From positions 1-64,000 of the forward strand of contig CANQSM010000002.1 in the NCBI GenBank assembly GCA_947626525.1: a DNA stretch of 64,000 bases, given 5' to 3'. The notes beneath the pieces were generated by a model. The model saw only the letters and a list, made by a program, of their open reading frames with translations. It did no database searches and was not told the DNA's origin. This DNA is from an uncultured Phocaeicola sp. (GTDB lineage: Bacteria; Bacteroidota; Bacteroidia; Bacteroidales; Bacteroidaceae). Made by a program: the position numbers and the translations under genes. Shown one piece after another: positions 11,379-46,719 of the stretch (within the stretch, counting starts at the first letter, position 1; each line of letters begins with the position of its first letter).

Positions 11379-11394
11379 AAGTACCACGGGTACT
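11379..11394 (+). other. Putative inversion site A (shared 16-bp core AAGTACCACGGGTACT)
   Basis: Identical core to sites B and C; 33-bp identity with site B (aagtaccacgggtacttatctgtgtaattgtct). Confidence 0.8.
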
Positions 11395-11428
11395 TATCTG
11401 TGTAATTGTCTAATTTAAAATAGAATCT

Positions 11429-12934
11429 ATGAGAAACAAACGTTTATTTTCACACGGAAAGACGTATGGTTTGTGGCTTGCGACAAGCTTATCTCTTTTC
11501 GGGAGTTGTACTATCGGATATGACCATAATACAACTTGGACTTCCAATGTAAGGGACTCCCAATTGGAGTCTCCGACGGGAGTAACAGTTACGAACAACA
11601 ATGACGGAACAGCTACCGTCAAATGGAAGGTAGTGGAAGGTGCCGGAGGATACGAGGTTTCATTTTACAATGTCGACAATCCCGCTGAAAGAGTTCCCAT
11701 AGGCGACGAGAATGAGTTTGTTGACGGATGCTCGTTTACTCGTGACATCGAAGATGACACGAAATATTTGGCCGTTGTTAGGACCTTGGGCAATACACAA
11801 CTTAATAACACTGCTGCTGAGACTGCAACCGAAACAGACTTTACTACATTGATTGAAACGACAGGGACAATTCCTGACGGAACGGATATTGCGCTCTATT
11901 TTCAGAGTAACCCTATTCCGGAATCGAATGAAGAATTGGCATACGATTTGGTAGCAGGAGGAAATTATACGATGAGTGAAGTGGTGGATTTTGGAGCACA
12001 TAACATCACGTTCAGGGGTGATAAAATAAACCATCCGACTGTAACCTTTGGAGAAAGTGCACGTTTTATAACTTGCGGAGGCTTGAAAATTAAGTTCATC
12101 AACTTTGATTGTAATGCCGCTTCGAGTGGTTCATCCGACAATGCATTTATTTTGCTTAGCAACAATCCTGCTGGTTATGGGCTGACCGCATCTTCTCCGG
12201 GGCAGTTTGTCATCACCGATCCGATTATGATTCAGTCTTGTGAGGTAAGAGGCATCAACCGCCATCTGTTTTATTGCAACGGTACTTCCTATTGCGTGAA
12301 ACAGTTTACGGTAAGGGATTGTATTCTTGGCTTCAATCAGTCCAATATTATTCTTCACATGAATTCAAACAATTCGTTTATTGCTCATACAACGTTTGAG
12401 AACAGTACCTTGTACAGTACCGTACAATCGGGACAACGTTTCATGCACTTTAGTTCCCGTGGCCCGCATTGGTTTATAAGTCAGCTTGGAAGCGATTCGT
12501 ATGGCATCGGAACCATATATAACGGGGTTTCGTATCGTGGCGCCGTCAATATTCTGAATTGCACATTCTACAATATTTCCTATACTGGACAAATGGCTAA
12601 TTATAGCGGAATACTTCAGAATACGACCTATATGAATATTACCAATAATATTTTTGTAAATACCGGCAATAATGAAATCATCAGGCGGTTTACCAACAAC
12701 AATAATAATGTGGCCAAGAGCATTGCGAACAATACTTATTGGTACGATGGAGCACTTTCAACGGACGGTGGAATGCAATATGATACGAATCCGATTACAA
12801 CTGATCCGAATTTAACCGATCCGGATAATGCCATAGAAGCAAACAGGGATTTCACTCCCCGTGGAGTAGAGCAACTGCGACTTCGTACCGGTGACCCACG
12901 TTGGCTTCCGGAAGTAGCAAATGATGAAAAATAG
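11429..12934 (+). CDS. Surface lipoprotein, DUF4957/DUF5123-like right-handed beta-helix (cassette A, first gene)
   Basis: Lipobox-like SLFGSCTIGYD; parallel-helix-like C-terminus ending DPRWLPEVANDEK; paralogous to 39500-41026. Confidence 0.7.
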   Translation: MRNKRLFSHGKTYGLWLATSLSLFGSCTIGYDHNTTWTSNVRDSQLESPTGVTVTNNNDGTATVKWKVVEGAGGYEVSFYNVDNPAERVPIGDENEFVDGCSFTRDIEDDTKYLAVVRTLGNTQLNNTAAETATETDFTTLIETTGTIPDGTDIALYFQSNPIPESNEELAYDLVAGGNYTMSEVVDFGAHNITFRGDKINHPTVTFGESARFITCGGLKIKFINFDCNAASSGSSDNAFILLSNNPAGYGLTASSPGQFVITDPIMIQSCEVRGINRHLFYCNGTSYCVKQFTVRDCILGFNQSNIILHMNSNNSFIAHTTFENSTLYSTVQSGQRFMHFSSRGPHWFISQLGSDSYGIGTIYNGVSYRGAVNILNCTFYNISYTGQMANYSGILQNTTYMNITNNIFVNTGNNEIIRRFTNNNNNVAKSIANNTYWYDGALSTDGGMQYDTNPITTDPNLTDPDNAIEANRDFTPRGVEQLRLRTGDPRWLPEVANDEK

Positions 12935-12936: not shown

Positions 12937-15900
12937 ATGAATAAAAACAAAGAAGATATGATAAGTAAGAAATATTTCATTATCAGCCTGTGCATGAGCT
13001 TTTTATTGGTTTTTTCCTTGCCGAGCTACGCCCAAAATGCACGGACTGTGACCGGTTCTGTCATGGATGAGTTTGGCGAACCGGTGATTGGAGCGACCGT
13101 TATGGTCATAGGAACTACTACAGGCACGGTAACCGACATGGATGGTAAATTTAGTCTGTCTGTACCTGAAAATGGAAAACTTTCGGTGTCATTTATTGGT
13201 TATCTCACTCAAACGATTACCAATTTGAATAACCCTACTGTTACCTTGAAAGAAGACGTAGCCAAATTGGACGAAGTGGTAGTGGTCGGTTATGGTACAC
13301 AACGAATGAAAAATGTGACCGGTGCCATTGAAACAATTACTCCGGAGGAGATTGAAGATTTATCGGTAGGCAATTTAGGGGATGCGTTGGCCGGAATGAT
13401 GAATGGGCTGCATGTCAGCACATCTGGAGGTCGTCCGGGCAGCACTCCAAGTCTGCAAATACGTCAAAGTGATGTAAACACAAGTATCACTCCTGCCAGA
13501 GGGGGAGAGCCCGATCCTACTCCTTTGTATGTGATTGACGATTTCATTTCTACGGAAGAGGCTTTTAATAATCTAGATGTAAGTGAAGTGGAAAGTATTA
13601 CGATATTGAAAGATGCTTCTGCAGCCGTATATGGAGCACGTGCTGCGTACGGTGTGGTTTTGGTAAAGACCAAGCGTGGGAAAATGGGAACGCCTACCAT
13701 CTCATACACCGGACAATTCGGTTATACCGATGCTTTGGACATGCCGGATATGTTAAGTGCATACGATTACGGGCGAATTTATAATGGCGCCCGTGCGGCG
13801 GGCACCTCTACGGGAGACTCCGATTCGGATAATCGCAGGACAGAATATTTTCAGGCTGACGAACTGGAGGCCATGAAATATCTGAACTATGATTTGCTGG
13901 ATGAAGAATGGAGTGCGGCTTTGACTCAACGCCACAGCATCAATATCAATGGCGGTACGGAAAAAGCCACTTATTTTGCAGGAATTTCCTATTACAATCA
14001 AGATGGAAATATGGGGCGATTGGATTATGACCGTTGGAATTTCCGTGCAGGTGTCAATGCCAACATCGGGAAGTGGACCAAGGCTTCTTTACAGGTATCG
14101 GGTGATTATGGCGAACAGAACAGTGCCCGCAATGGCGTAACCGGAGGTGGAACCGACAATGATTATAATGCTTTGATGACCCATTTGCGCTTTGTACCCA
14201 ATTACATCAATGGATATCCAATTGTGTATACCGGCATGACAAACAACTCATCCGGTTTGAGCGATACGCAGTTATATCATTTTGGGGCTATTCAGAATTC
14301 ACCTGACAACACCCAGAACCAGACAGAAAATATGTCCATCAATGGTTCATTGGAATATGATTTCGGATGGAGCAACCTTTTGAGGGGACTGAAAATGAAA
14401 GCCTCTTATTCGAGAAGTCTCAATCACAACAAAAGCAATCTGATAGGAACTACCATGAACGTATATCGTTTGAATGCCCGTGGAGGCAGTGGCGGTCACC
14501 TTTATACCGGAGATGACATTTTGCCGGATGAAAGCAATTTCGGGACATTTACCTTGAATAACGGGAATCTTTTAAGACGTACGATGGAAAGGACGGATAA
14601 CTATCAGATGAACTTTACGGTGAGCTACGAAAGGCAATTTGGCTTGCATTATGTAAATGGCTTGTTCTCCGTCGAAAAGGCAGAATCGGAATATGAATAT
14701 GTGAGAGGAAACAAGACTGACCCATTCAGCTTTACAGACGGAACGTCCAATTCAACTGCCAGTAATGCTACTCAAACGGCAGAATTCAGCCGTACCGAAT
14801 CCGGAATGCTTTCTTATATTGGGCGTTTAAATTATTCGTATGCAGACAAATACCTGTTCGAGTTCTTGTTACGTTCCGATGCCTCTACCAAGTTTGCTCC
14901 AAGCAACTACTGGGGAGTATTTCCTTCTTGGTCGGCTGGTTGGGTCATATCAGAAGAAAGCTGGTTCAATAAAGAGAAACTGGGTATTGACTTCTTGAAG
15001 ATTCGCGGTTCGTTTGGTATCTTAGGACGAGACAATGTACAGCCTTGGTTGTGGACTCAACTTTATTCACGCAACCCGGATAGAGGCCCCATCTTCGGTA
15101 CCAGCACAGACACTTCCAGCAGTGCTACCTTCCAGATGCCTCAGACCGGTGTGAATGCGGATGTGCACTGGGATAAGACTTATAAGACAAATATCGGTTT
15201 GGATATTCGGATGTTGGACAGCAAATTGGGAATCACTTTGGATGCGTACTACGATATGGGAAGGGAATTATTCACCACCTATACTGGAACTTCTTTCTAC
15301 CCGACAACTGTAGGTGTGCAGGCAACTCCTGAAAACTTTGGTAAAATCGACACGTATGGTGTAGAATTGACGTTGAATTGGAGAGATAAGATAGGAAAAG
15401 ATTTTTCATATTGGGTGAAGATGTCTACCGGATATAGTGACAATAAGATTATCGAAGCCAATTTCCAAGCTACTCCGGGATTTGACGACATTGTTCGCAA
15501 CGGGCGTTCCGACCGAGGCGTATGGGGGTATGAATGTTTGGGTATGTTCCGCAGTTATCAGGAAATCGAGGAGTATTTTGCAGTAAACAACATCACTTCT
15601 TATTTGGGCAATACCATAGATAATATCCATCCGGGTACGTTGATTTATAAGGACGTACGCGGACAGCGTAATGCGGATGGAACGTATGGAGAACCGGATG
15701 GAGTCATTGACCAAAACGATTATGTGAAAATCTCCCATCGTGCCAGCAATCCTTATGGTTTTACACTGAATTTTGGCGCTTCCTACAAAGATTTTTCATT
15801 CAGTGCCCAATTCGGTGCCAGCTGGGGAGCGTATGGCTTGGTACAAACGGATTTGCGTCAGGAAAGTTTTAATAATCTGGAATATAATAATGTATCCGCA

Positions 15901-16263
15901 ATGTGGAAAGACATGTTCGTGTATGAGGATGTATTGGATGCCAACGGCCAAATCGCAGTAGAGAAAAATACGGATGCCAAATATCCGAATCTTCGTTACA
16001 GCAATATCAACGGACAGGCTTCCACTTTCTGGAAAGTAAGCACTGCCAGTGTACGGTTGCGCAATCTGACCATTGCTTACAGTCTTCCGAAAGCGTGGAT
16101 GAAACCTGTAGGTATCAGCAGTTGCCGTCTGAACCTGACTTGTCAGAATGTATTGGATTTCTATAACCCATATCCCGGTGATGTTTGGAATCCTTGGGCG
16201 GGAACTTACGGGCGTTATCCGAACTTACGTAAGTTTACCTTAGGTGTCAATGTTTCATTCTAA
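12937..16263 (+). CDS. SusC/RagA-type TonB-dependent outer membrane protein (cassette A)
   Basis: CarboxypepD-like domain, LDEVVVVGYGTQ TonB-box region, plug and barrel, C-terminal ...FTLGVNVSF. Confidence 0.95.
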   Translation: MNKNKEDMISKKYFIISLCMSFLLVFSLPSYAQNARTVTGSVMDEFGEPVIGATVMVIGTTTGTVTDMDGKFSLSVPENGKLSVSFIGYLTQTITNLNNPTVTLKEDVAKLDEVVVVGYGTQRMKNVTGAIETITPEEIEDLSVGNLGDALAGMMNGLHVSTSGGRPGSTPSLQIRQSDVNTSITPARGGEPDPTPLYVIDDFISTEEAFNNLDVSEVESITILKDASAAVYGARAAYGVVLVKTKRGKMGTPTISYTGQFGYTDALDMPDMLSAYDYGRIYNGARAAGTSTGDSDSDNRRTEYFQADELEAMKYLNYDLLDEEWSAALTQRHSININGGTEKATYFAGISYYNQDGNMGRLDYDRWNFRAGVNANIGKWTKASLQVSGDYGEQNSARNGVTGGGTDNDYNALMTHLRFVPNYINGYPIVYTGMTNNSSGLSDTQLYHFGAIQNSPDNTQNQTENMSINGSLEYDFGWSNLLRGLKMKASYSRSLNHNKSNLIGTTMNVYRLNARGGSGGHLYTGDDILPDESNFGTFTLNNGNLLRRTMERTDNYQMNFTVSYERQFGLHYVNGLFSVEKAESEYEYVRGNKTDPFSFTDGTSNSTASNATQTAEFSRTESGMLSYIGRLNYSYADKYLFEFLLRSDASTKFAPSNYWGVFPSWSAGWVISEESWFNKEKLGIDFLKIRGSFGILGRDNVQPWLWTQLYSRNPDRGPIFGTSTDTSSSATFQMPQTGVNADVHWDKTYKTNIGLDIRMLDSKLGITLDAYYDMGRELFTTYTGTSFYPTTVGVQATPENFGKIDTYGVELTLNWRDKIGKDFSYWVKMSTGYSDNKIIEANFQATPGFDDIVRNGRSDRGVWGYECLGMFRSYQEIEEYFAVNNITSYLGNTIDNIHPGTLIYKDVRGQRNADGTYGEPDGVIDQNDYVKISHRASNPYGFTLNFGASYKDFSFSAQFGASWGAYGLVQTDLRQESFNNLEYNNVSAMWKDMFVYEDVLDANGQIAVEKNTDAKYPNLRYSNINGQASTFWKVSTASVRLRNLTIAYSLPKAWMKPVGISSCRLNLTCQNVLDFYNPYPGDVWNPWAGTYGRYPNLRKFTLGVNVSF

Positions 16264-16284: not shown

Positions 16285-18492
16285 ATGAATAAGATAAGAT
16301 TATATCACTCTATGGCATGGATGGTTGCCATGAGCATGAGTTTCGCCGGATGTAGCGACCAATTTCTGGAGGACAAGAAAGTATATGGAAGCTATGACGG
16401 ATCGGTCGTATACGAAAATTATGAGACAGCAGAGGGCCGGGTGGATTATTTATATCAGTGTCTGTTGCCCAATGCTACCGGTGGTGATAATGCACTGACC
16501 GATGTGGTCAGTGCTGGCATTAATGATAACTTCTCCCAGTGTACGGAAGAGTACGGAGGGTATTCTGTATACAACGATCCTGCGGCCGTTTTGACAAATC
16601 AGACAATTACGGATTATTTCTATGTAATCAATAATGTAACCAGTCCATGGGGGCGTATCCGAGAATGTAACGATATCATTGAGGGAGTGGAAGGGAGCGC
16701 TTCTCTTTCTCAGTCAGAGAAGGAACTGTTGTTGGGGCAGGCTTACTTTTTCCGTGCGTGGCGTTATTATCTGTTGGTTAAATTCTACGGGGGTGTGCCT
16801 ATTGTGGATTATGTACAGAGTCCGATTATCGGGGACGGCAATGGAGAAGATTTGGTGATTCCACGTTCGTCTACCAAGGATTGCATCGATTTTATATGTA
16901 ATGATTTGGATTTGGCTGCCCGGTATCTTCCGGTACGCTGGACCAATGAGGCACAGAATTTCGGACGTATTACCGCAGGTGCGGCCTTGGCACTGAAAGG
17001 ACGTGTCCTGTTGATGTATGCCAGCCCTCTTTTCAATCGCTCTGACAATAAAGAACGTTGGGAAGCTGCCTACCAGGCTAATAGTGCCGCTGTCGACAAG
17101 TTGGCGGAAGGAAACTTCGGTTTAGGCTATGCAGGCAGTGGAGGTGAACACAATGCCAAAGATTGGGCGAGGATGTTTGCCACTCAAAACGGTGGTGGAG
17201 AAGAAGCTGTATTCATCACTTTATATAACAACAAATCACCGGTGGAGGCACAGAATGTGGATAAATACAATTTATGGGAGCAAGGCATCCGCCCGGTAAA
17301 TGCCAATGGAAGCGGAAGTCGTACTCCGACAGCGGAAATGGTTGATTTGTTCCCTATGGCAGATGGGAAAAAACCGGGAGAGTCGGAATATGTTTATGAC
17401 AGGAATAAATTTTTTATGAATCGTGACCCACGTTTCTATCGTACATTTGCTTTTCCGGGAGTAGAATGGCGATTCAATGGTGGTGAAAATACGGATTTTA
17501 CCGGTGATAAAATGAGCACCATTTGGCCGATCCGCTACCGGAACGGAAACGACTACGAATTGTGGAGCTATTGCTGGTATGCCACGGAGGATGACAAAAA
17601 CAGCGAGAGCAAAAGCGGATACGCCGCCGACATGTTAGGTACGAGCAACAAGGGCGTTTATCTGCGTAAACGTTCGGATGATTATGCATTTGGGACCAAC
17701 CTGTATAAGTTCAATGATCTCCGAAGCAGTAACCGACAGGGATTCGGCCAATCGGCCGCTCCCTATATGGAGATAAGGTATGCCGAGGTATTGTTGAATC
17801 TGGCTGAATCGGCTTGTGGTGCAGAGCATTATAACGAGGCCGTCCGTGCATTGAAGGACATCCGTGCCAGAGTAGGTTACACGGAGGAAGAGAATTATGG
17901 ACTGAATAGCAATATAGAGAATGATCGTGCCAAATTATTTGAAGCGATTTTGTACGAGCGTCAGATAGAACTGGCCTATGAGGGGAAACGCTTTGAGGAC
18001 ATGCGCCGTTGGATGCTGTTCGATGGCGGCGTAGGGCAAGCTTCCTTGCATGCAAGTTGGGGATTGACCGGATTCGGTGGAAATACTTGTGCTTATTTGG
18101 GAGTTACTCCCATGAATGAACGTGGTAAAAGGCATCGCATAGAAATCTACGTCGATGGCTTGGGCGAAGCCAATAACCAGAGCGATCCGCTGGCCAATGT
18201 CACTCGTCCGGATGGGCTGACGTTGGATGAAGACATGACCATAGCCATTGACGAAAGCAACGTCCCGACAACTGTCAAAAATCTATATGATTTTTATACG
18301 ACTTATTTTAGACGTAAAGACATTAGTCTGGATGGTAATACGAATGACATCAATCCCACTTTCCGCCCGGAATATTATTTCTTTGGTTTGAGACAAAGTG
18401 CGCAACAAACAAACGCAACGTTGCTACAAACCATCGGGTGGACTGATTATTCTCACGGTGGCATGGGAACATTCGACCCCTTGGCCGAATGA
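16285..18492 (+). CDS. SusD/RagB-type outer membrane lipoprotein (cassette A)
   Basis: SFAGCSDQFLEDKKVYG; ILYERQIELAYEGKRFEDMRRW; ends GTFDPLAE. Confidence 0.95.
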   Translation: MNKIRLYHSMAWMVAMSMSFAGCSDQFLEDKKVYGSYDGSVVYENYETAEGRVDYLYQCLLPNATGGDNALTDVVSAGINDNFSQCTEEYGGYSVYNDPAAVLTNQTITDYFYVINNVTSPWGRIRECNDIIEGVEGSASLSQSEKELLLGQAYFFRAWRYYLLVKFYGGVPIVDYVQSPIIGDGNGEDLVIPRSSTKDCIDFICNDLDLAARYLPVRWTNEAQNFGRITAGAALALKGRVLLMYASPLFNRSDNKERWEAAYQANSAAVDKLAEGNFGLGYAGSGGEHNAKDWARMFATQNGGGEEAVFITLYNNKSPVEAQNVDKYNLWEQGIRPVNANGSGSRTPTAEMVDLFPMADGKKPGESEYVYDRNKFFMNRDPRFYRTFAFPGVEWRFNGGENTDFTGDKMSTIWPIRYRNGNDYELWSYCWYATEDDKNSESKSGYAADMLGTSNKGVYLRKRSDDYAFGTNLYKFNDLRSSNRQGFGQSAAPYMEIRYAEVLLNLAESACGAEHYNEAVRALKDIRARVGYTEEENYGLNSNIENDRAKLFEAILYERQIELAYEGKRFEDMRRWMLFDGGVGQASLHASWGLTGFGGNTCAYLGVTPMNERGKRHRIEIYVDGLGEANNQSDPLANVTRPDGLTLDEDMTIAIDESNVPTTVKNLYDFYTTYFRRKDISLDGNTNDINPTFRPEYYFFGLRQSAQQTNATLLQTIGWTDYSHGGMGTFDPLAE

Positions 18493-18565: not shown

Positions 18566-18633
18566 GATCAATGAAGTCCGCATCTGAATGTCGGCACGCA
18601 AATCATTCGTGTACAACATTCCGTTGAACCGCA

Positions 18634-18665
18634 GAGCGGGCCGCACCTCCCGGTGCAGCCCGCTC
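18634..18665. terminator. GC-rich hairpin terminator, reversed copy of 46720-46751
   Basis: gagcgggccgcacc-tccc-ggtgcagcccgctc. Confidence 0.75.
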
Positions 18666-18740
18666 CATATTTTAAAAACCCGAAAAAATAAAAAGATATT
18701 CTGTTTAACTTATTGTATTTGTTCAGTAAGTTCAAATGCT

Positions 18741-18896
18741 TTATTCAGCCAAGGGGTCGAACGTTCCGGGAGCGCCTCCCCTGCTGTAATCTTCCCAACC
18801 GATGGTCTGCTGGATTTGTACGTCCTTTTCCAAAGCGCCTTTAGTCAGTCCCAAGAAATAATATTTAGGGAAGAACTTCATGTACAGATCCGTATC
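18741..18896 (-). pseudogene. SusD C-terminal fragment (TDLYMKFFPKYYFLGLTKGALEKDVQIQQTIGWEDYSRGGAPGTFDPLAE)
   Basis: Near-identical to the C-terminus of the SusD at 44459-46645; no upstream SusD body. Confidence 0.85.
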
Positions 18897-19066
18897 CATC
18901 CGGAAACGTCTTGTCAGTTGGCTGCACATTTCTCCAAGACTTCCTTGTTGGTATCCACTCCAATCCATAAAGTTTACGGTTATTTACTTCATAAACAGAA
19001 AGGACCGCACCTCATGGCACAGCCCTTCCTCATTATAATTATAAAACCCGAAAAAATCATCTATAA

Positions 19067-21115
19067 TTATTCAGTCACAGTCAGGATCTCATCATCTTGG
19101 AAATGAATAGTACCCGGATTCTGATCTTGATCGGTCCAGCCAATAGTCTGTCCCAGCCATTCATTATTGTCCAATACCGTTGCATCCAAACCGTTGATAT
19201 AATAATTACCACGCCAAAGAATATTCACCGGATTATCGCTATTATCTTTATCTGCTGGCGTCAATGGATCTGCTAAATAAAAATGGCTTTTATAGAAAGC
19301 TACCAATTGACTTAATTGGGCCTGAAAATCAGCATGGTCTGGGTCCGCTCCCAACACTGCACGTTCTTCAAACAATGGGTCCTTGTCGCCAATATATTCC
19401 GATGTTTTCACTACCAACATCTTCGAGTGACGGCAAGTGCCATTCAGTGGAGCCAATCCAAGGGCTGTACAAGTATTCACATTACTCAACTTAAGTTCTT
19501 CACCCTGTCCTCCATCATAAAGTAACCAGCGCCATAAATCCCATGAACGCTTTCCTTCGTAAGCCAATTCTATCTGACGCTCTTTCAAGCAAGCTGCAAT
19601 AGCTTGATAGCGATCCGCAACACTACCTAAACCATAATTATTGGTAGCAGGTATACCTACTCGTCCGCGAATTTCACCAATACATCTTACCGCTTCAGTA
19701 ACATTCCCTGTAGCAGCATAGCATTCAGCTAGATTCAATACTAATTCAGCAAAACGATATTCATAAATAGTGGTATTGCTGAACTGCAGCTCATCCTCAC
19801 CAAAGGCCGCATTACTCATCTTACGAACAAAACAGGGACTGTTTACCTTGTTTTCATCACTACCAGACAAGCTATATTGATCATCGGTAGGAGGAAGATT
19901 GAACCATTGATAAGCCCATACAATATCTTCCGGATTTTCTTTACTGCCCCATTTTACACCACTAAAAGCAAAAGTACGATAGAAACGAGGGTCACGATTC
20001 AAAATAAAATCCATACTTTCGTTTTTAATCTTCACAGCCTCTGTAGCCGGTGTTCCATCAGCCATCGGGAACGCATCAATTAACTCAACAGGAACTGAAA
20101 CACCCCCGTTACCGCCCTGAGAAGTTAAACGAATATCTTTTTCCCATCCGTTATGTTCGGAATAGCCCGTATTATCTTTCGAGTTCAGTTTAACAATTAG
20201 CGCTTCCTTATTCCCGCTATTCGTATTATCATTTGTACCCAACATCTCGGCCCAGCCTTTTGCATTAACACACTGTCCCAAACCATAACCTGCATTTTCT
20301 GCAGCTTCACGAGCCAATTGGGTAGCTTTCAAAGCAATCTGCCAACGAATATTCTGCGGATTGTCCCAGTCTTTATTAAACAACGGGCTGGCATACGTCA
20401 GCAACACACGACTTTTGTAAGCCAAAGCCCCCACACTAGTCAAGCGTCCATAGTTTACCGAAGCATTCGGCCATACAGCGGGGAGTAAACGAGATGCTTC
20501 GTCCAAATCCTTCACAATCTGATCGACACACTGTGTAACGGAAGAACGCGGATAACCATTTTCTATAACCTCTGCATTAATCACTGTGGTCACAATAGGT
20601 ACCGGACCGTAACAGCGAACCAGCTCAAACAACTGCATGGCACGCAAAAAGAGCATTTGTCCCTTTGCATAACGTTTCGACTCATCACTTACGTTCTTCA
20701 TTCCATCCAATTCGCCAAGCAACACATTACACAGACGTATGCGCGAGTAAGCATTGTTATTATCTTTAGTATCCAATTTGTTACCAAAATATCCTTTCAT
20801 AAAATATTCATTCAGGTCACTCACACCAGAAGCTGTCGAAGTCTCACCAGCCATTTTGCCGTTATTGTCAATTCCCCATGCCTCCTCAGTCAGGTTATTC
20901 CGGTTCACCCACGAAGTGATAACCACCTTACGAGGGTCAGAATAACCATGAAAGAATCGGTCATATACACCGGCAACATACCAGCTAAGACGAGTTTCGG
21001 AATCAAAATCATCATATTTCTCATAGGTTTTCATGTCGAGGAACGAATCACTGCATCCCGAAAAGAAGAAGCTCATGGCCAAAGCTCCTACATATAATAG
21101 ACTTTTCTTTTTCAT
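19067..21115 (-). CDS. SusD/RagB-type outer membrane lipoprotein (cassette C)
   Basis: Start at MKKKSLLYVGALAMSFFFSGCSDSFLDMK (ORF track start is 57 nt upstream); CLKERQIELAYEGKRSWDLWRW. Confidence 0.93.
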   Translation of the reverse strand: MKKKSLLYVGALAMSFFFSGCSDSFLDMKTYEKYDDFDSETRLSWYVAGVYDRFFHGYSDPRKVVITSWVNRNNLTEEAWGIDNNGKMAGETSTASGVSDLNEYFMKGYFGNKLDTKDNNNAYSRIRLCNVLLGELDGMKNVSDESKRYAKGQMLFLRAMQLFELVRCYGPVPIVTTVINAEVIENGYPRSSVTQCVDQIVKDLDEASRLLPAVWPNASVNYGRLTSVGALAYKSRVLLTYASPLFNKDWDNPQNIRWQIALKATQLAREAAENAGYGLGQCVNAKGWAEMLGTNDNTNSGNKEALIVKLNSKDNTGYSEHNGWEKDIRLTSQGGNGGVSVPVELIDAFPMADGTPATEAVKIKNESMDFILNRDPRFYRTFAFSGVKWGSKENPEDIVWAYQWFNLPPTDDQYSLSGSDENKVNSPCFVRKMSNAAFGEDELQFSNTTIYEYRFAELVLNLAECYAATGNVTEAVRCIGEIRGRVGIPATNNYGLGSVADRYQAIAACLKERQIELAYEGKRSWDLWRWLLYDGGQGEELKLSNVNTCTALGLAPLNGTCRHSKMLVVKTSEYIGDKDPLFEERAVLGADPDHADFQAQLSQLVAFYKSHFYLADPLTPADKDNSDNPVNILWRGNYYINGLDATVLDNNEWLGQTIGWTDQDQNPGTIHFQDDEILTVTE

Positions 21116-21141
21116 AATCGTAACTATATTATATATTATTG

Positions 21142-24100
21142 TTAGAATGTTACATTCACACCCAAAGACCACGTACGCAAAGTTGGATAATCAGCATTTC
21201 CAGCATTATACATATTGCGGTAATGATCGGGATACGGATTGTATAAGTCCCACAAATTATTACCCGACAAATTCAACCGCACACTCTGCATACGCAACGG
21301 AGCAATCCATTTCTTCGGCAATGAATAGGCAATAGTCAGGTTACGCACATAGCAACGGAATGTTTCAATGGCCCAGAAATCGGAATCGGCCAGTACAGAA
21401 CCTCCAATCACGCGGTCACATCCCAAATTCGGATAAGCACCATTCGGGTTTGTTTCCTCGTCAAACATATCTTTCCAGAACGAGTCGGGGCTCCATACGG
21501 TTTTTCCACCTCCTGTTTTAATGTCCACTCGGTCAATGAAACGCACACCACCCCATGAAGTAGCAATATTAATACGGAACGACAAATTCTTCCAACTCCC
21601 ACCCAAACGGGTTGTGAATCCTTGCGAATCTTTTCGACCACAAAGTCGTGCATAATCTTGTTCTTTGTTAATCTGTCCATTAGGAGCTTGTTGTACACCG
21701 TCCTTCATTTCACCTCCCAAATCTTGATAAGCCAACATACCAAGACGTAATTCGTCTTTCTTTTCTTTACCAAAGTATTTCGGAGTAGTACCTGCCGCAT
21801 TAGCGTGTTCAGTCAAGTAATTCCAATAACTGTCAATATCCTCTTGTGTGCGCAAAATACCGTCGCCTGTAGAAGTTCCTTTCCACACTTTAAAGCCATA
21901 TTTAGCAAATGTGGTAGAGAGCCCTTCTTTCCATGATGTAGAACTAGGATAAGCATTGTCGCGCAAACCTGGAACCCACTTCTTGATACGGCTATCATTA
22001 ATACCATAATCCAAGCCAATATCGTATTTAAAATCACCAATCTGATCACGCCAAGTCAATGAAAGCTCAGCTCCGTAAGTATCTACACGTCCCCAATTTT
22101 CTTCAGCATATTGTCCACCGGCATAAATAGGAATACCTGGTTGACTAGCCATATCTTTATTCAAAATTTCATCATTGATATCATAATATAAATCTAATGT
22201 AGCTCCTAAACGGCCTCCTAAGAAACGCATATCAAAACCAACATTAAACTTATCTACAACTTCCCATTTCACATCTCTGTTAGGTGAAGTGTCCGGGAGC
22301 AAACGAGTACCTCTGTTTCCACCATTTGAACCAAACTGCATACCTTCCAACTTCGTACTATAAACTTGTTTCCATTTCCATGCCTTCAAATTATCACGTC
22401 CTGTACGTCCCCACAAAGCACGAATCTTCATGTATTCCATCCAAGGCAGTTTATCCTTGAACCAGTTCTCTTCCGAAATAACCCATCCGGCAGAAATACC
22501 AGGGAAAAAGCCCCAATAGTTCTCTGGAGCAAATTTGGTAGAAGCGTCCGAACGGAAAATGAACTGTAACATGTAACGGTCAAGATAATTATAACTTACA
22601 CGTCCTAAATAAGACAACGAACCGGATTCTCCTTTCCTAGTAACAGTATTATCCGAGCTCAAAGCTGAGGTGCCATCAGGTTTCACAGTCTGAGGTCCAC
22701 CCACGCCTAAAAACGTATCAGACATATCGGATGCCAAGTTTTCAAAAGCTATAAGGCGTTCCGAATATTCCGATTCGCTACGTTCGATACCAAACATGGC
22801 TGCAATGGAGTGATTACCAAATTTACCATCGTAGTTGACATAGAAGTTATACTGCTGATTCTTCGATACCATATCGGTAAAATTGAGCTGTGTATTCTTA
22901 TCAAATGTCTTTAACGCAAAATTACTTAAAGGAATATCTTCCGGTAAATGTTGACCTACTTTCGGTTGAGATTTCATATATACAATATCATAAGGAAATG
23001 CAGCTTGCTCGGATACGTTTGTCGTATATGAAGTAGCATAGCTTCCACGAATAGTCAATCCTTTGATAAATGGTACTTCATAAGTTAAAGAAAGGTTAGA
23101 ACCCCAACTATTCATGTCCTGATTGCTGTATGAACCGTTCTCCCGTAATGCAAAATAGTTCCAACTTGATACACTATTATTGGCAAAGCTCGGATTCCGA
23201 TAAAAATTCTCATACGGAGCCAACCAATATTCCTCTCCATCTTCCATTGTAATGCTCCATGGCATGAAATCAGGAATATGATGCAACACATTGTAATCAG
23301 CCTTTTCACTGGCTGCTCCACCGTAAGCATCAAAACGTGCGCCTTTCGTATAAATAGAACGTGTCTTTCCTTCATTACCCGAAACAGAAGCCGACAATTT
23401 TACATCAGAAGTCAATTTAATGTCTACCCCGGCACGATAAGTAAAACGTGAATAATCCTGTCCACCCAAATTGGCGCCCTGATTCATGTAACTTGCACCT
23501 GCAAAATAAGTGGCACGTTCAGATCCTCCGCTTACGTTCAAAGTATGGGTCTGATTGAACGCAGCTTTCCATCCAGCTTCATCTAACCAATCATAATGAT
23601 AACCATCCAATGCCGTAATTTCTTCATCGCTAAACAACTTGTTTGTTTCTGAACGTTTAGCCTGATTAGAACCTATTAAAAAAGCATTATGAAAACGTCC
23701 ATAATCCGAACCTCTCAGCACTTTTGAATGACTAATTGCATCGCTAATAGCAAATTTGCCTGAATAACTAATGCTCGGCACTCCATTCTTTCCTCGTTTA
23801 GTTTTCACTAAAATAGCACCATTAGCTGCACGAGAACCATAAATAGCCGCACTCGCATCACGTAATACAGTAATGCTTTCTACTTCCGATGGATCAAGCA
23901 TATTGAACTGTTCCATACTTGGCAAACCATTCGTTCCTAGCTGAATAACATCGTCAATGATAATTAACGGAATGTTATTACCACCATCTTTTGATAAACC
24001 ATTCATAGTCTTTGCCTGACGGATGTAGATTTCATTATTCAACGCTCCACCCGGACGACTTGAACCCAAATCCACACTCAGACCATTAATCTCACCTTGC

Positions 24101-24384
24101 AAAGCTTCCGCCAAAGTGGTAACAGGCAAATCTTCCAAATCCTTAGCCGAAATGGTAGAGACAGATCCGGTTACGTTCTTCATTCTTTGTGTTCCATAAC
24201 CTACTACTACCACTTCATTCAGCTTTTGCGTATCTTCCAACAACGTTATCTTCAAAACGTCCGTTTTTGGAGTAATTTCTTGTGAAAGATACCCGATGTA
24301 AGTAATGTTAAGCTTCCCTCCTTCAGGTACATCAAGGGAAAATTTACCATCAAAGTCTGATATAGTACCCGTGGTACTTCCCAC
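21142..24384 (-). CDS. SusC-like TonB-dependent receptor body lacking signal peptide and N-terminus ('headless', cassette C)
   Basis: Begins at GTG GGA AGT ACC ACG GGT = VGSTTGTISDFDGKFSL; everything N-terminal to GSTTGT is absent; the truncation coincides with inversion site C. Confidence 0.9.
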   Translation of the reverse strand: MGSTTGTISDFDGKFSLDVPEGGKLNITYIGYLSQEITPKTDVLKITLLEDTQKLNEVVVVGYGTQRMKNVTGSVSTISAKDLEDLPVTTLAEALQGEINGLSVDLGSSRPGGALNNEIYIRQAKTMNGLSKDGGNNIPLIIIDDVIQLGTNGLPSMEQFNMLDPSEVESITVLRDASAAIYGSRAANGAILVKTKRGKNGVPSISYSGKFAISDAISHSKVLRGSDYGRFHNAFLIGSNQAKRSETNKLFSDEEITALDGYHYDWLDEAGWKAAFNQTHTLNVSGGSERATYFAGASYMNQGANLGGQDYSRFTYRAGVDIKLTSDVKLSASVSGNEGKTRSIYTKGARFDAYGGAASEKADYNVLHHIPDFMPWSITMEDGEEYWLAPYENFYRNPSFANNSVSSWNYFALRENGSYSNQDMNSWGSNLSLTYEVPFIKGLTIRGSYATSYTTNVSEQAAFPYDIVYMKSQPKVGQHLPEDIPLSNFALKTFDKNTQLNFTDMVSKNQQYNFYVNYDGKFGNHSIAAMFGIERSESEYSERLIAFENLASDMSDTFLGVGGPQTVKPDGTSALSSDNTVTRKGESGSLSYLGRVSYNYLDRYMLQFIFRSDASTKFAPENYWGFFPGISAGWVISEENWFKDKLPWMEYMKIRALWGRTGRDNLKAWKWKQVYSTKLEGMQFGSNGGNRGTRLLPDTSPNRDVKWEVVDKFNVGFDMRFLGGRLGATLDLYYDINDEILNKDMASQPGIPIYAGGQYAEENWGRVDTYGAELSLTWRDQIGDFKYDIGLDYGINDSRIKKWVPGLRDNAYPSSTSWKEGLSTTFAKYGFKVWKGTSTGDGILRTQEDIDSYWNYLTEHANAAGTTPKYFGKEKKDELRLGMLAYQDLGGEMKDGVQQAPNGQINKEQDYARLCGRKDSQGFTTRLGGSWKNLSFRINIATSWGGVRFIDRVDIKTGGGKTVWSPDSFWKDMFDEETNPNGAYPNLGCDRVIGGSVLADSDFWAIETFRCYVRNLTIAYSLPKKWIAPLRMQSVRLNLSGNNLWDLYNPYPDHYRNMYNAGNADYPTLRTWSLGVNVTF
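24364..24379 (-). other. Putative inversion site C (core AAGTACCACGGGTACT on the - strand)
   Basis: 22-bp identity with site B (tgtgggaagtaccacgggtact) in opposite orientation. Confidence 0.85.
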
Positions 24385-24530: not shown

Positions 24531-25634
24531 ATGAGTTTACAATGTGGCATAGTCGGCCTGCCGAATGTAGGCAAATCGACTCTTTTTAACTGCCTGTCAA
24601 ATGCTAAGGCGCAGGCGGCCAATTTTCCTTTCTGTACAATTGAACCCAATGTAGGGGTTATCACTGTCCCCGATGAACGTTTGAACAAATTGGCGGAACT
24701 GGTTCACCCGGGACGTATTGTTCCTACTACTGTTGAAATTGTGGATATCGCCGGCTTGGTAAAGGGTGCGAGCAAGGGAGAAGGATTGGGAAACAAATTC
24801 TTGGCCAATATCCGGGAAACAGACGCTATCCTTCATGTTTTACGTTGTTTTGAAGATGAGAATGTGACACACGTGGATGGGAACGTAGACCCTGTACGTG
24901 ATAAGGAAATTATTGATACGGAACTTCAGCTGAAAGATTTGGAAACAATTGAAAGCCGTATTCAGAAGATACAGAAACAGGCTCAGACTGGAGGAGACAA
25001 ACAGGCTAAACTGACTTATGATGTGTTAGTGAAATATAAAGAGGCATTAGAACAAGGTAAATCGGCCCGTACCGTACAGTTCGAAGGCAAAGACGAACAA
25101 AAGGTTGCTAAAGAACTCTTTCTGCTCACCTCTAAACCAGTGCTCTATGTATGTAACGTAGACGAAGCAAGTGCTGTCAGCGGGAACAAATATGTGGAAC
25201 AAGTTCGTGAGGCAATCAAGGAAGAAGAAGCAAACCTGTTAATTGTTGCGGCTAAGATCGAATCGGAAATTGCCGAACTCGAAACGTATGATGAGCGGCA
25301 AATGTTTCTCTCGGAGATAGGTTTGGAAGAATCGGGAGTAAACCGTTTAATCAAGGCCGCTTACCAATTACTGAATCTGGAAACCTTCATCACCGCAGGA
25401 GAAATGGAAGTGAAAGCCTGGACTTATCAAAAAGGATGGAAAGCACCACAATGCGCAGGAGTGATTCATACTGATTTTGAGAAAGGATTTATACGTGCCG
25501 AGGTGATTAAATATGAAGATTACCTGAAATATGGTTCGGAAGCTGCCGTACGCGAAGCCGGAAAACTGGGAGTAGAAGGAAAAGAATATATCGTACAGGA
25601 CGGAGACATCATGCATTTCCGTTTCAATGTATAA
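24531..25634 (+). CDS. ychF: Redox-regulated ATPase / Obg-like GTPase YchF
   Basis: MSLQCGIVGLPNVGKSTLFNCLSNAKAQAANFPFCTIEPNVG. Confidence 0.96.
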   Translation: MSLQCGIVGLPNVGKSTLFNCLSNAKAQAANFPFCTIEPNVGVITVPDERLNKLAELVHPGRIVPTTVEIVDIAGLVKGASKGEGLGNKFLANIRETDAILHVLRCFEDENVTHVDGNVDPVRDKEIIDTELQLKDLETIESRIQKIQKQAQTGGDKQAKLTYDVLVKYKEALEQGKSARTVQFEGKDEQKVAKELFLLTSKPVLYVCNVDEASAVSGNKYVEQVREAIKEEEANLLIVAAKIESEIAELETYDERQMFLSEIGLEESGVNRLIKAAYQLLNLETFITAGEMEVKAWTYQKGWKAPQCAGVIHTDFEKGFIRAEVIKYEDYLKYGSEAAVREAGKLGVEGKEYIVQDGDIMHFRFNV

Positions 25635-25652
25635 CAACTAACACTGATTAAA

Positions 25653-26510
25653 ATGAATGAAATACTTTCCATACTTTGGAATCCTAATGTGGATTTCTTT
25701 ACTTTCTTCGGTATTCATATCCGCTACTACTCCCTTTGCTGGATGATTGGCCTTGCACTGGCCTATTTCATCGTTCAGAAATTATATAAACAACAGAGAA
25801 TCAAGCCTGAGCTTTTTGATCCGTTGTTTATCTACTGTTTCTTCGGTATTCTTATCGGAGCGCGTTTAGGACACTGTCTATTCTATGAACCGGGATACTA
25901 TCTGGCTCATCCGCTAGATATCATTTCTCCTTTCCGCCAAACGGCCGCAGGATGGAAATTTACGGGTTACGAAGGATTGGCCAGTCATGGGGGTACCATT
26001 GGCCTCATGATTGCTTTGTGGCTGTATGTCCGTAAGACAAAAGTGAATATTATACGGGTATTGGACAATATTGCCATTGCTACTCCTATCACCGCCTGTT
26101 TCATCCGTTTAGGAAATTTAATGAATTCCGAAATCGTAGGTAATCCCACTACCCTGCCCTGGGGATTTATTTTCGCACGCAACGGAGAAGATTTTGCCCG
26201 GCATCCGGCACAATTATACGAAGCCATTGCCTACCTGATTATTTTCATGATAGGATGGTATCTCTATAAAAAACACACGGAAAGAGTAGATACCGGATTC
26301 TTTTTCGGCTATTGTCTGACCTCTATTTTCACATTCCGATTCTTTGTAGAATTTGTGAAAGCCGCACAGGTAGATTTCGAAAACGGTATGTTGCTGAATA
26401 TGGGACAATGGTTGAGTATTCCCTTTATCATTATAGGTGTAGCTTGTATGATAGGCAGAAAATGGATACGCCGCTTTTCAAGCAACCGGCAGGAAAAGAA
26501 AAAAGTATGA
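25653..26510 (+). CDS. lgt: Prolipoprotein diacylglyceryl transferase
   Basis: [16 protein letters not shown]...[10 protein letters not shown]...[12 protein letters not shown]. Confidence 0.95.
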
Positions 26511-26515
26511 GGGAC

Positions 26516-29134
26516 CTACTTCCCTCCTACTATCTTCTTGATGTCATTCAGTTTGTTCAGAGCTTCCAATGGAGTAAGGTTATTTACGTCCAGATGAAGT
26601 ATTTCATCGCGTATTTGGCAGAGTACCGGATCGTCCAACTGAAAGAAACTAAGTTGCATGCCTTCCCGACTTTCGGCAATTTCGGCTGTGGGACGCCCGC
26701 CAATACCTTGCTGCCGGTTATCTGTCTCCAATTTTTTTAGAATGTCATTGGCGCGCTTTACTATGCTTTTAGGCATGCCGGCCATTTTTGCTACATGAAT
26801 ACCAAATGAGTGTTCACTTCCTCCCCGCTCCAGTTTACGTAGAAAAATCACCTTATTATCAATCTCTTTCACGGAAACATTGTAGTTTTTGATACGGGGA
26901 AATGCCTTCTCCATCTCATTCAGTTCATGGTAATGGGTGGCAAACAGGGTACGGGCTTTTGCCTTTGGATGTTCATGAATATATTCTACGATAGCCCAAG
27001 CGATAGAGATGCCATCGTAAGTAGAGGTTCCCCGTCCTAACTCGTCAAATAGCACCAAACTGCGAGATGAAATATTGTTCAGAATATCCGCCGCTTCATT
27101 CATCTCTACCATAAAAGTGGATTCTCCTACCGAAATGTTATCACTTGCCCCTACACGTGTGAAAATCTTGTCAACCAATCCAATACGAGCACTCTCTGCC
27201 GGCACGAAACTTCCTATTTGCGCCAATAAGGTAATCAAGGCTGTTTGCCGTAGCAATGCCGATTTACCGGCCATATTCGGTCCGGTAATGATGATGATTT
27301 GTTGTTTTTGGCTATCCAGCATGACATCATTTGCAATATATTTTTCTCCCAAAGGGAGCTGTTTTTCAATGACCGGATGTCTTCCTTGGCGAATATCTAT
27401 GACATCACTGTTTTCTATAACCGGCCGGACATAATTGTTTTCACGTGCCACATTGGCAAAAGAAAGCAAGCAATCCAAGCGGGCTATTTGGTTGGCATTG
27501 ATTTGTATGAAAGGGATAAACTCCATCAATGCTGTTACCAATTCCATATACAAACGACTTTCAAGCATCAGGATACGGTCTTCTGCTCCGAGAATTTTCT
27601 CTTCATACTCTTTCAGCTCCTGCGTAATATAACGTTCCACATTAGCCAAAGTCTGTTTACGTATCCATTCCGAAGGAACTTTCTCCTTATGTGTATTGCG
27701 GACTTCAATATAATAACCAAATACATTGTTGTAACCGATCTTTAGACTGGGTATTCCAGTCAGTTCGCTCTCTCTTTGTTGGATCTGCAAAAGGTAGTCT
27801 TTGCCCGAATAGGCGATATGGCGCAGTTCATCCAATTCGGCATTCACTCCGTCACGGATTATCCCACCTTTGTTCAATAATACAGGAGGATCATTCTGTA
27901 TTTCTTTGGCAATACGCTCGCGTGCTTCGACACATAAATTCAGTTTCTCTCCTATTTTTTTCAGGCTCTCGTTCTCAGCCTGCATACAAGCTTCCTTAAT
28001 AGGTCCAATAGCTTGCAGGGCCACTTTCATTTGTACCATTTCACGAGGAGATATCCGTCCTGCAGCCGCTTTGGAGACAATACGTTCCAAATCGCCAATT
28101 TGGTGTAGTTGCTCTTCCATCAAACCTTTAAAATCGGGTTCACGGAAAAAATAGTCTACAACATCCAGTCGTTCGTTTATCTGCTTCTCATCCCGCAGTG
28201 GAAATACCATCCATCGTTTCAGTAAACGTGCTCCCATGGGACTAATGGTTTTGTCGATGACATCCAGCAAACTGATGCCTTCATTCATCATGCTGCTCAC
28301 CAGCTCTAGGCTACGCACGGTAAACTTGTCCAATCTCACGTATCGGTCTTCCTCGATACGTGAAAGGGCAGTGATATGACTGATTTGCGTATGTTGTGTA
28401 ATCTCCAGATACTGAAGAATGGCACCTGCCGCCACAATGCCATTCTTCAGGTATTCCACTCCAAATCCTTTCAGATTCTTTGTCTCAAAGTGTTTCAGCA
28501 ATTTTTCTCTTGAAGAGCTTTCTGTAAAGACCCAGTCTTCCAGTTCAAAAGTAAAATATTTGCCTGTAAAGGTCCGTTCAAATAGTTCCTTTTTTCCTCT
28601 TTCAAACAAAATTTCTTTCGGAGCAAAGTTGTCAAGCAATTTATCTATGTAGTCATAAGGCCCTTCCGCAGTTAGAAACTCTCCGGTAGAAATGTCCAGA
28701 AAAGCCACTCCACACGCTCCTTTTCCAAAATGCAGCGCCGCAAGAAAATTATTTTCTTTATAATTCAGTATATTGTCATTAATGGAAACCCCCGGTGTAA
28801 CCAACTCGGTAATGCCCCGTTTTACCAATTTGCGGGTTGTTTTCGGGTCTTCCAATTGGTCGCAAATAGCCACCCGTTTTCCCGCGCGTACCAATTTGGG
28901 TAAATAGGTATCCAGTGCGTGATGAGGAAAACCGGCCATCTCTACCGAACGTCCCTGTTGCCCGTTGGCGCGTTTCGTTAAAGTAATGCCCAATATTTCG
29001 GATGCCACAATTGCATCCTCCGAATAGGTTTCATAAAAATCCCCACAGCGAAACAATAATACTGCATCCGGATGTTTGCTTTTTAATTCGAAATATTGTT
29101 TCATCATGGGAGTCAAAACCACTTCGTTTGCCAT
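26516..29134 (-). CDS. mutS: DNA mismatch repair protein MutS
   Basis: [58 protein letters not shown]. Confidence 0.97.
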
Positions 29135-38812: not shown

Positions 38813-39238
38813 CTTCCTCTCCGGGAACTTTTCCCGTATCCCCCGATACATCACTTTCCATATCTGATGACGCTGCTCCGGCCGGACAACCATGTCACCT
38901 TTCACAGCCGGTCGCGTCACCTTCCGCGACTAATCATCTCACTCTTCGCGACCGGCCGCGTCCGTTTCTTTTTTTTCCTGTTTACAAGGAATTCAAAGCC
39001 TTTTGGCACAGGCGTTTCAGCAAAAGTGAAGATACACAATTTGAAATGTAAAATATAGATATGAGAAGGGCCGGACTGATACATAACAGCCTTTTCGGAA
39101 ACGTTCAAAAGATTTCTAAAGTAAAATAAGTAAAAAAATAAAAAATATTCGTAATCCGCATCATACGTTTTGTCTTTTCATGTGTCTATATTAGTGAATG
39201 TATTAAAACATTTCTGTTTAACTTTAAAATTTATTAGT

Positions 39239-39427
39239 ATGAGGCACAAGATTCTTCTTGTATTATTCGCCGTCATGACGATGATGGGAAGCGCGTTAGC
39301 GCAGACTCGAAGCGTGACTGGCCAAGTTGTCGATGAAAAGGGGGAACCTGTCATCGGCGCCAACATCAAAGTTGTGGGAAGTACCACGGGTACTTATCTG
39401 TGTAATTGTCTGATTCAAAACAGATAG
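39239..39427 (+). CDS. SusC N-terminal 'head' only: signal peptide plus start of the CarboxypepD-like domain, cut at GSTTGT
   Basis: MRHKILLVLFAVMTMMGSALAQTRSVTGQVVDEKGEPVIGANIKVVGSTTGT, then YLCNCLIQNR*; the break is at inversion site B. Confidence 0.88.
   Translation: MRHKILLVLFAVMTMMGSALAQTRSVTGQVVDEKGEPVIGANIKVVGSTTGTYLCNCLIQNR
39379..39394 (+). other. Putative inversion site B (core AAGTACCACGGGTACT)
   Basis: Left flank continuous with the SusC head, right flank like site A; 22 bp shared with site C. Confidence 0.85.
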
Positions 39428-39499
39428 GCAGGCGCTTCACCCGATAGAAGTCGTATAAACCGATTATAAGCATATATGTTTAACTTAAAAAATCAATCT

Positions 39500-41026
39500 A
39501 TGAGAAAAAAATCATTGATGATTCCTCTTTGCCCCAATGGACGGGGAAGGGGAAAGAAAGCCGTCTTATGGTCTTTTGCCATAGGGGCTTTATTCTTGGC
39601 TTCTTGTAGCAAGGGAGCGGATTGCGATGAGTCGTTTTCCAGCAGTACTCAAAATGCAGTACTGACTTCCCCATCGTCAGAATCCATTAGTTTTGATACT
39701 AAAATCGAGTCGGACGGCAGTGAAAAAGTTCAAGTGTCTTGGCCGGTAGTGCATGGCGCAGGTGGCTATGAGTATGAAGTGAAAGATGTTACTGACCCTG
39801 AAGCGATAGTAATAACGGTTCCCAAAGACACATTGGATGGAACTTCATTCTCGTTTGCCAAAGCTGAAGACACTAACTTTGAAATTCATGTCAGATCTTT
39901 GGGAAATCCAATGCAGAACAATAAGGAGGCCGAACAAGCTACCATTGTGAATTATTCCACCATTATTCCGGCGGACATTGTTCCTCAAGGTGTTGATATG
40001 GTGGCATTCATCAAGGGCAAACTGGGAGACGGTTCTACCGAGCAAGCATTCGAGTTGGAAGCCGGCGGACGTTACGAACTGAACGAGCCGCTTGATTTCG
40101 GGAACCGCCCAATCACTCTGCGTGGTAATAAAAAGAATCGTCCGATAATTACATACGGAGCAGAAGGTGTCATCCGTACGGGTAACGGATTGAAGGTCAA
40201 GTTTATCAACTTTGATTGCACCGCACAGGCAAAACCTTTGAGGGGTGTCGTTGAGTGCTCGACGGAAGGTGAGCCTGCATTGGAAGGCCCTAACTTTGGA
40301 TATAAGGATGAAGGATATGTATTACAAAACCCGGTATTGTTGCAAGAGTGCTGGTTTAAGAATGTCAATTTCGGTTTGTTCCATACAGGAACCGCCGCTT
40401 GGATGGTAAGAGATGTACGCGTAATGGACTGTATCGTCCAGCTCAGTTGCGATGGAAAAGATTTTGGAGATGGTTCTGTAATTGGCTCTTATGGTGCTTC
40501 TAATTATAAAAACGGAACTCAAGTGTGGAAATGCGGAATCCGTGATGTTACCGTTAAAAACAGTACTTTTTATAACATTAAATCGAACAGCAAGAACCGT
40601 TTCCTCCGTTTCAGTAATAACAATCTTAGCAATACTTTCGGTACAAAGGATGGTTCTGCCACCATCGAAAACTGTACGCTCATTAGGACCTATGATGACA
40701 AAGAGTTTGGCAACAATACTCCAAACACCAAAGAATACAAGATTTCCTTTAATGGCAACATTTGTTATGATGTATTCCGCTTGCAGAAATTCATTCAAGG
40801 AAACTGTACAAATACCGTCAACCCGACAAAAAATACCATTTGCGGTATTAAAAACGCGGTGGATGACACGGATAAAAGTAAATGGGCAACCGAAGAGAAT
40901 ATTGCTTTTGAGCAAACTGACCTTACTCAAGAACTTGATTTGACTCAACCTAACGGTGGCCTGAAGCTGAAACCTGTCAGTGGAAGCATCTCTATGACCA
41001 TTGGCGACCCGCGTTGGCTGGAGTAA
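39500..41026 (+). CDS. Surface lipoprotein, DUF4957/DUF5123-like beta-helix (cassette B, first gene)
   Basis: Likely start at MRKKSLMIPLCPNG (39500); lipobox LFLASCSKG; ends GDPRWLE; paralogous to 11429-12934. Confidence 0.7.
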   Translation: MRKKSLMIPLCPNGRGRGKKAVLWSFAIGALFLASCSKGADCDESFSSSTQNAVLTSPSSESISFDTKIESDGSEKVQVSWPVVHGAGGYEYEVKDVTDPEAIVITVPKDTLDGTSFSFAKAEDTNFEIHVRSLGNPMQNNKEAEQATIVNYSTIIPADIVPQGVDMVAFIKGKLGDGSTEQAFELEAGGRYELNEPLDFGNRPITLRGNKKNRPIITYGAEGVIRTGNGLKVKFINFDCTAQAKPLRGVVECSTEGEPALEGPNFGYKDEGYVLQNPVLLQECWFKNVNFGLFHTGTAAWMVRDVRVMDCIVQLSCDGKDFGDGSVIGSYGASNYKNGTQVWKCGIRDVTVKNSTFYNIKSNSKNRFLRFSNNNLSNTFGTKDGSATIENCTLIRTYDDKEFGNNTPNTKEYKISFNGNICYDVFRLQKFIQGNCTNTVNPTKNTICGIKNAVDDTDKSKWATEENIAFEQTDLTQELDLTQPNGGLKLKPVSGSISMTIGDPRWLE

Positions 41027-44000: not shown

Positions 44001-44424
44001 CATTCCAAGTAACGCACGCGATTTCTTATACGACAAGGAAATCTCTAACATGCCGTCTATCTGGAATCCGGACAACATGTTCGTCTACCAGGATATTTAC
44101 GACGGTTCGGGTAATCTGATAATGAAAGAAAACCGCAACGGTAAGATGCCTAACTTGGCTTATGCCGATGTGAATAAGGTAGAATCTTCATTTTGGAGAG
44201 TAAGCGGAACCAGAGCCTCTCTCAACAACCTGACCTTGGCATACAAACTTCCGTCGGAATGGGTGAAGAAAGTAGGCATTGAAAGCTGCCGTGTCAACGT
44301 CACAGGCCAGAACTTGCTGAGCCTCTACAATCCGTATCCTGACAATTTCATGGATCCGATGTGCGACTTCGGCAAATATCCTGTATTGAGAAAGTTCACC
44401 GTAGGATTAAACGTGACATTCTAA
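41062..44424 (+). CDS. SusC/RagA-type TonB-dependent receptor (cassette B)
   Basis: MAVPALAQTTVSGVVVDENEETVIGASVKVVGTQTGTITDMNGKF; EEVVVVGYATQ. Confidence 0.95.
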   Translation: MKHHSIFKIGLGILLALFMAVPALAQTTVSGVVVDENEETVIGASVKVVGTQTGTITDMNGKFSVTVPENGAIEISFIGYITQQIKKFTPDMKIVLKEDTQNMEEVVVVGYATQKKAHLTGSVATIPVEDIQDLSSGGVASMLRGLVPGLSVSGGQGRPGENATIYIRDTNALGDVGSTAQEPLFVIDGFIYPNDVKVGNVRQNLGAEAFNNLDPSTIESISVLKDGSAAVYGARAANGVILVTTKKGKLGKPMISYSGNYGFTDEVSRPDMLSTYDYGRLYNAVKAADPFDVDNMNLRSDLFQADELEAMKRLNYDMLDKYWETGITMKHSVNVSGATEKANYFASIGYFEQEGNLGRLDYDRWNYRAGVDLKISDWVKASLMVSGDYGEKNKPLIKIGGSNIEKDYNLMLTRPGYIPEYVNGYPIIAMGPENGNPTNDQLYHYATLQENGDYSENQNSNTTINGSLSYDFGWSKILKGLNLRFSYSKTINTNKANEYATDFTVYQMLERSGSGKHLYTPVDGQDFEALMVESNFNPRKIANGDKSYLSRDMVRTDSYQMNFTASYNREFKQHSVNALFSIEKSETESEYVMAKRQDPYPFTTGQFNSATGEKDGNFTRSESGTLSYIGRINYAYANKYLLELLIRSDASTKFAPKNYWGTFPSASAGWVVSGEDWFQEKVKGIDYLKVRASFGLTGRDNTEPWQWMRIFSQDAYRGPIFGETSNGSSLPRITINKNNSAVNSDVHWDKSYKANFGIDINLLDNRLAVTFDAYREWNREMLMKIAQAVPSTVGTQSAAVNLGEMDNWGYELSLTWKDKIGKDFKYRINLNTGYSDNRVLRMDFKQDYTFRQIQYKGRTDVGTWGMQCIGMFRSFQEIEEYFDRYMVTGADATGNPIYGKYMGKDKSEIRPGMLIYKDVRGAKQEDGTYAGPDGIVDKDNDLVRLSDRSNPYGFTVNLGAEYKNFSLSAQISTSWGGYSFIPSNARDFLYDKEISNMPSIWNPDNMFVYQDIYDGSGNLIMKENRNGKMPNLAYADVNKVESSFWRVSGTRASLNNLTLAYKLPSEWVKKVGIESCRVNVTGQNLLSLYNPYPDNFMDPMCDFGKYPVLRKFTVGLNVTF

Positions 44425-44458
44425 CACAAGTATGTTGAATTTTAAACGAAAAGAAACA

Positions 44459-46645: not shown

Positions 46646-46719
46646 AGCATTTGAACTTACTGAACAAACACAATAAGTTAAACAGAATATCTTTTTATTT
46701 TTTCGGGTTTTAAATTATA

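Follow-up and report, generated by a model that had tools for sequence, protein, structure and literature searches.

The window (the whole stretch of 64,000 nucleotides analysed here, from an uncultured gut Phocaeicola sp.) contains three copies of one core sequence which, with a probability that we put at about 0.8, act as recombination sites in a SusC/SusD shufflon of three cassettes and a single expression site, the likely enzyme being L022, an integrase-family protein encoded elsewhere in the genome. The 16-bp core, AAGTACCACGGGTACT, is found at 11379-11394 (+), 24364-24379 (-) and 39379-39394 (+), corresponding to sites A, C and B, respectively. When up to 3 mismatches are allowed, 0.30 core matches are expected in shuffled windows, and with at most 1 mismatch the copies in the whole 3.77-Mb assembly are A, B and C only. 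A sequence-only reading had presented A as a third copy of the core, inverted relative to C and direct relative to B, with 33 bp identical to B and a lipoprotein/SusC/SusD cassette on its right flank. All of this was confirmed: the core at A matches those at B and C exactly over 16 bp, the strands agree with the proposed orientations, the 33-bp sequence AAGTACCACGGGTACTTATCTGTGTAATTGTCT is present at both A and B (46 bp at 93% identity when extended), and the right flank codes for a DUF4992/DUF4957/DUF5123 lipoprotein, a full SusC and a SusD-like protein. The genome-wide search for extra copies, also proposed there, returned the three sites and no others. The stretch common to B and C is TGTGGGAAGTACCACGGGTACT. 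The features of the locus are the following:

11379..11411 (+): site A, core and right arm, exact in B
11429..12934 (+): cassette A lipoprotein (DUF4992/DUF4957/DUF5123)
12937..16263 (+): cassette A full-length SusC
16285..18492 (+): cassette A SusD-like protein
18632..18962 (-): inverted copy of the SusD-B 3' end, breakpoint of a large inversion
19067..21172 (-): cassette C SusD-like protein
21142..24384 (-): cassette C headless SusC body
24364..24379 (-): site C, core continuing in frame into this SusC body
24531..29134 (no strand assigned): ychF, lgt and mutS, between the direct copies A and B
39125..39238 (+): conserved block 5' of the leader, taken to be the promoter and 5' UTR for the one expression site
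39239..39427 (+): SusC leader ORF, signal peptide and start of the N-terminal domain (NTD)
39379..39411 (+): site B, core and right arm, ends the SusC leader
39476..41026 (+): cassette B lipoprotein (DUF4992/DUF4957)
41062..44424 (+): cassette B full-length SusC
44432..46645 (+): cassette B SusD-like protein
46497..46753 (+): partner repeat, SusD-B 3' end

The key element of the locus is the promoter and SusC leader to the left of B. The leader ORF starts as a SusC does (MRHKILLVLFAVMTMMGSALAQTRSVTGQVVDEKGEPVIGANIKVVGSTTGT), counts 52 codons to the core and, in the present state, continues for about 10 codons past the core before reaching a stop. The core AGTACCACGGGTACT corresponds to five codons (S-T-T-G-T) of the SusC N-terminal domain, which are codons 48-52 of the leader-bearing gene, and the frame is the same on the leader side and on the body C side. 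The reading frame of SusC-C is open up to the core and has no signal peptide. Taken alone, the leader covers positions 1-29 of the CarbopepD_reg_2 profile and body C positions 23-88, while their in-frame fusion gives the complete domain (profile 1-88, 62.7 bits). Sites A and B each precede a complete lipoprotein-SusC-SusD operon, and the lipoprotein ATG of cassette A (11429) is only 34 bp past the core, so that this cassette would have to be transcribed from the DNA left of the core. Long hairpins, perfect or nearly so, follow SusD genes at 38750-38807 (29-bp arms, no loop) and 59261-59333 (32-bp arms, 9-nt loop), and are probably terminators.

Relatives of SusC-C in five other genomes have kept their own signal peptide, and the headless form is found only in the two species with sites, namely that of the window and a sister species represented by G014 (an uncultured Phocaeicola MAG, contig CANPVZ010000004.1). 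The headless gene is stop-free in both, with a dN of 0.11, a dS of 2.3 (saturated) and a dN/dS of about 0.05, which indicates that it is under purifying selection in both species. A gene under such selection should be expressed at times, for which the leader would be the evident route. The leader and the block upstream of it are unusually conserved: synonymous codons are identical at 39 of 46 positions in the leader, compared with 581 of 1004 in SusC-B, and the approximately 110 bp preceding the leader are conserved with G014, while the DNA further upstream is not. The match to the Bacteroides promoter consensus upstream of the leader is poor and weak, and the DNA upstream of C holds a promoter-like match, both of which speak against the model proposed below.

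The three sites are found in G014 as in the window, with unchanged partners, and all three of its cores read AAGTCCC where those of the window read AAGTACC. The right arms of A and B are identical in G014 over 27 bp (27/27, versus 24/27 in the window), yet unlike those of the window, B differing between the species at 8 of 27 positions. In this way the right flanks of A and B share species-specific bases even though the lipoproteins behind them are only 51% identical. The A slot of G014 is moreover occupied by a different cassette (SusC 53% and lipoprotein 33% identical to those of the window), so the arms have changed in step and the cassettes have not. To the left of the core, the bases adjoining C track those of the leader in both species, with TGTGGG in the window and ATCGTGGG in G014. 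Such a concerted pattern of core and flanks would be left by repeated exchange or by a shared requirement of the recombinase, and the concerted change at all three sites lends support to exchange between them. Compared with G014, the window has the segment running from the end of cassette A through to that of cassette B in inverted orientation, and the SusD 3' repeats at the breakpoints show 98% identity over 107 and 97 nt. The leader of G014 is opposite to A, which places cassette A one flip away, versus two in the window. SusD 3' remnants at 18632-18962 and 46497-49354 mark the breakpoints of this large inversion, and a fimbrillin-like gene (46904-49087) at one of them is absent from the corresponding place in G014. 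In a family-wide scan for the core, triples were found in the two species only; five other genomes had one match each and one genome had two, on different contigs, the stray matches being near chance level. Four other members of the genus have DUF4992 lipoproteins, with no core-like site nearby. A match to the extended pattern at position 15015 of contig C10 in the window's genome is not in a SusC and was discarded.

According to the mechanism proposed here, a tyrosine recombinase would cut inside the core, and inversion of the 13-kb A-C or the 15-kb B-C segment would join another right-hand cassette to the promoter and leader left of B. With body C joined, leader and body would form one complete SusC, followed by SusD; with A or B joined, the leader ORF would end some 10 codons beyond the core, and the lipoprotein, SusC and SusD genes would be transcribed and start from their own start codons. 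The cassettes sitting at A-left and C-upstream would be off, the leader promoter presumably being the sole active one. Inversions between opposite sites give four arrangements in the state graph, namely leader-B twice, leader-C once and leader-A once. The leader reaches all three cassettes by inversions alone, leader-A being two flips away, one of which involves B, and every cassette can thus reach a single expression site, whose promoter is predicted. We infer that these inversions occur; against this, both assemblies, one per species, have the leader joined to B, and no alternative junction was seen in them. The sequence-only reading, partly supported overall, had considered A-C inversion possible as well as B-C, and the geometry allows for both. 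In two respects it is corrected here: the key element is the promoter-leader left of B, and A-C inversion alone leaves leader-B unchanged. Such an inversion joins A-left to body C, which is headless, and cassette A to C-upstream, and as neither resulting end has a SusC leader, it would swap two silent positions. Recombination of the direct pair A-B would delete lgt, ychF and mutS, and such deletions should be selected against for this cost. A more elaborate version of the model is offered tentatively, its probability falling somewhat short of even. It describes a trans-acting shufflon with two kinds of output from one site, either the leader-body C fusion or the A and B operons behind a short aborted leader, where the essential lgt and ychF between direct sites would guard against cassette loss and another inversion, between the repeats of the SusD 3' ends, would re-orient the leader between lineages, altering which cassettes are one flip away.

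The genome of the window has 39 integrase matches, with none on the window's contig. L022 (contig C56, 19175-20341) codes for 389 aa with SAM-like and Phage_integrase domains and is unlinked to the locus; an alignment shows its catalytic R, H-x-x-R-H and Y, as assigned by eye, to be conserved. Amongst 15 genomes of the genus, including those of the window and G014, it has a syntenic ortholog (81%) in G014; for the remaining 13, the best-scoring matches reach at most 35%. Its relatives in another genus of the family (43-48% identity) are located between divergent SusC genes, and 22 of 25 relatives have SusC coding sequence at most 1.5 kb away, compared with 0 of 47 integrase loci in the window's genome and G014. 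This phyletic profile and the relatives' neighbourhood make L022 a strong candidate for, and likely, the shufflon invertase. No core-like sequences were found near its gene. It is rather unlikely, though deserving of some weight, that the same sites are served by another integrase (L029/L080, XerC/D or a mobile-element enzyme). The genome does hold 39 matches, and L029 has an ortholog (73%) only in G014, the others being at most 45% among the matches listed, but the SusC adjacency of the L022 relatives is seen for no other integrase locus of either genome. L015, L021, L024 and L007 were also weighed as invertase and set aside, L024 being present across the genus and L015 and L021 lying among mobile-element-like genes. 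A genus-conserved recombinase between ruvB and large surface-protein-like genes (L100 and L107, on contig C3 of the window's genome and C4 of G014) possibly represents an S-layer phase-variation locus.

It is also conceivable that a system that once inverted has since become locked, B being on while A and C are stranded reserves. The leader-B state common to two species and a recombinase unlinked to the locus would fit with this, but in both species the headless SusC-C has an open frame that is under purifying selection, and the cores are still evolving in concert, which makes a locked system improbable. Less probable still is that the core reflects SusC coding similarity together with cassette duplication, and no recombination: GSTTGT is a common SusC motif and is encoded by the B and C cores alike, but the core at A is non-coding and the right arms of A and B are outside SusC coding, the G014 cassettes with 51% lipoprotein identity still have identical arms, and body C starts abruptly at the core where its relatives are intact. 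An invertible promoter (inverton) was rejected, as 13-15 kb of DNA with operons separates the sites, where an inverton has a short promoter segment between close inverted repeats. Mobile-element attachment sites were rejected as well, given that no integrase lies between the repeats (none on the contig, and none among the main ORFs of the window according to Pfam).

The loci of L022 relatives in the other genus (L138-L150) that were read in detail, one-leader/headless-SusC shufflons with the recombinase in a central position, combine a leader-bearing SusC with at least one headless SusC starting at a 15-bp core, AGTTCTGCGAAAACT or a close variant, which corresponds to the five codons S-S-A-K-T. 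Compared with the core of the window, 9 of 15 positions match, the codon phase is equal and the AGT...ACT ends are present in both. Both systems have a leader-bearing SusC, headless bodies starting from a shared core and the same recombinase family. They differ in that the core of L138-L150 is about 19 codons further downstream and their recombinase adjoins the leader, whereas the candidate for the window is unlinked; unlike A and B, the L138-L150 sites examined have no complete lipoprotein operons. We presume that this type resembles the nutrient-receptor shufflon BT1040-BT1046 of B. thetaiotaomicron. L139/L140 (G392:C1:1490001-1524999) holds the shufflon recombinase and leader twice, as identical-scoring inverted copies about 11 kb apart, and L139 has a 793-nt inverted repeat (97%). 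The same type of core, AGTTCCACGAGAACT, is found in L172 (G220:C1:505169 and 506562) as an inverted pair that flanks one gene and lies 5' of where two divergently oriented SusC genes have their start codons. In G014, inverted palindromes AAGTTCCGGCGGAACTT are found beside two copies of one gene start (ATGGCAAAAATGCACAAG...) at C37:26-42 and 5704-5720 (L063 and L066), a layout resembling that of an invertible phage tail-fibre segment.

In B. fragilis SusC/SusD shufflons, the invertase Tsr0667 inverts large segments and places alternative pairs behind one promoter (PMC5729914, PMC4747536, PMC11852207), and the repeats of region EE overlap the susC start codon (PMC5729914). Nutrient-receptor shufflons also exist in B. 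thetaiotaomicron (PMC12548429). As in region EE, multiple inversions would put alternative SusC/SusD pairs behind one promoter in the window, which is here a prediction from sequence. Compared with region EE as described, the core of the window is located at codons 48-52, and the signal peptide and NTD start are hence shared; the window also has two full lipoprotein-SusC-SusD cassettes and housekeeping genes between the sites, and its candidate recombinase is unlinked. The Mpi, Tsr19 and BT1927 invertible promoters of Bacteroides loci for capsule and S-layer likewise control surface structures by reversible inversion, as proposed here, but there a short promoter flips between two inverted repeats, while in the window the promoter-leader ends 13-15-kb segments carrying operons. 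With at least three copies of one core in mixed orientation and, on their variable side, alternative SusC/SusD cassettes, the system of the window has the sequence features of a Bacteroides SusC/SusD shufflon and probably is one, differing in the position and sequence of its sites, its mix of cassettes and its unlinked candidate enzyme.

These observations would link one particular family of recombinases with a defined target of 15 bp and five codons in the SusC N-terminal domain, where a putative recombination site stays in frame inside a conserved protein motif, and they predict the junctions to seek in reads of the window's lineage. SusC/SusD transporters of the outer membrane are surface-exposed and set which glycans gut Bacteroidales import, and switches between them would for this reason affect nutrition and possibly interactions with phages and the immune system.
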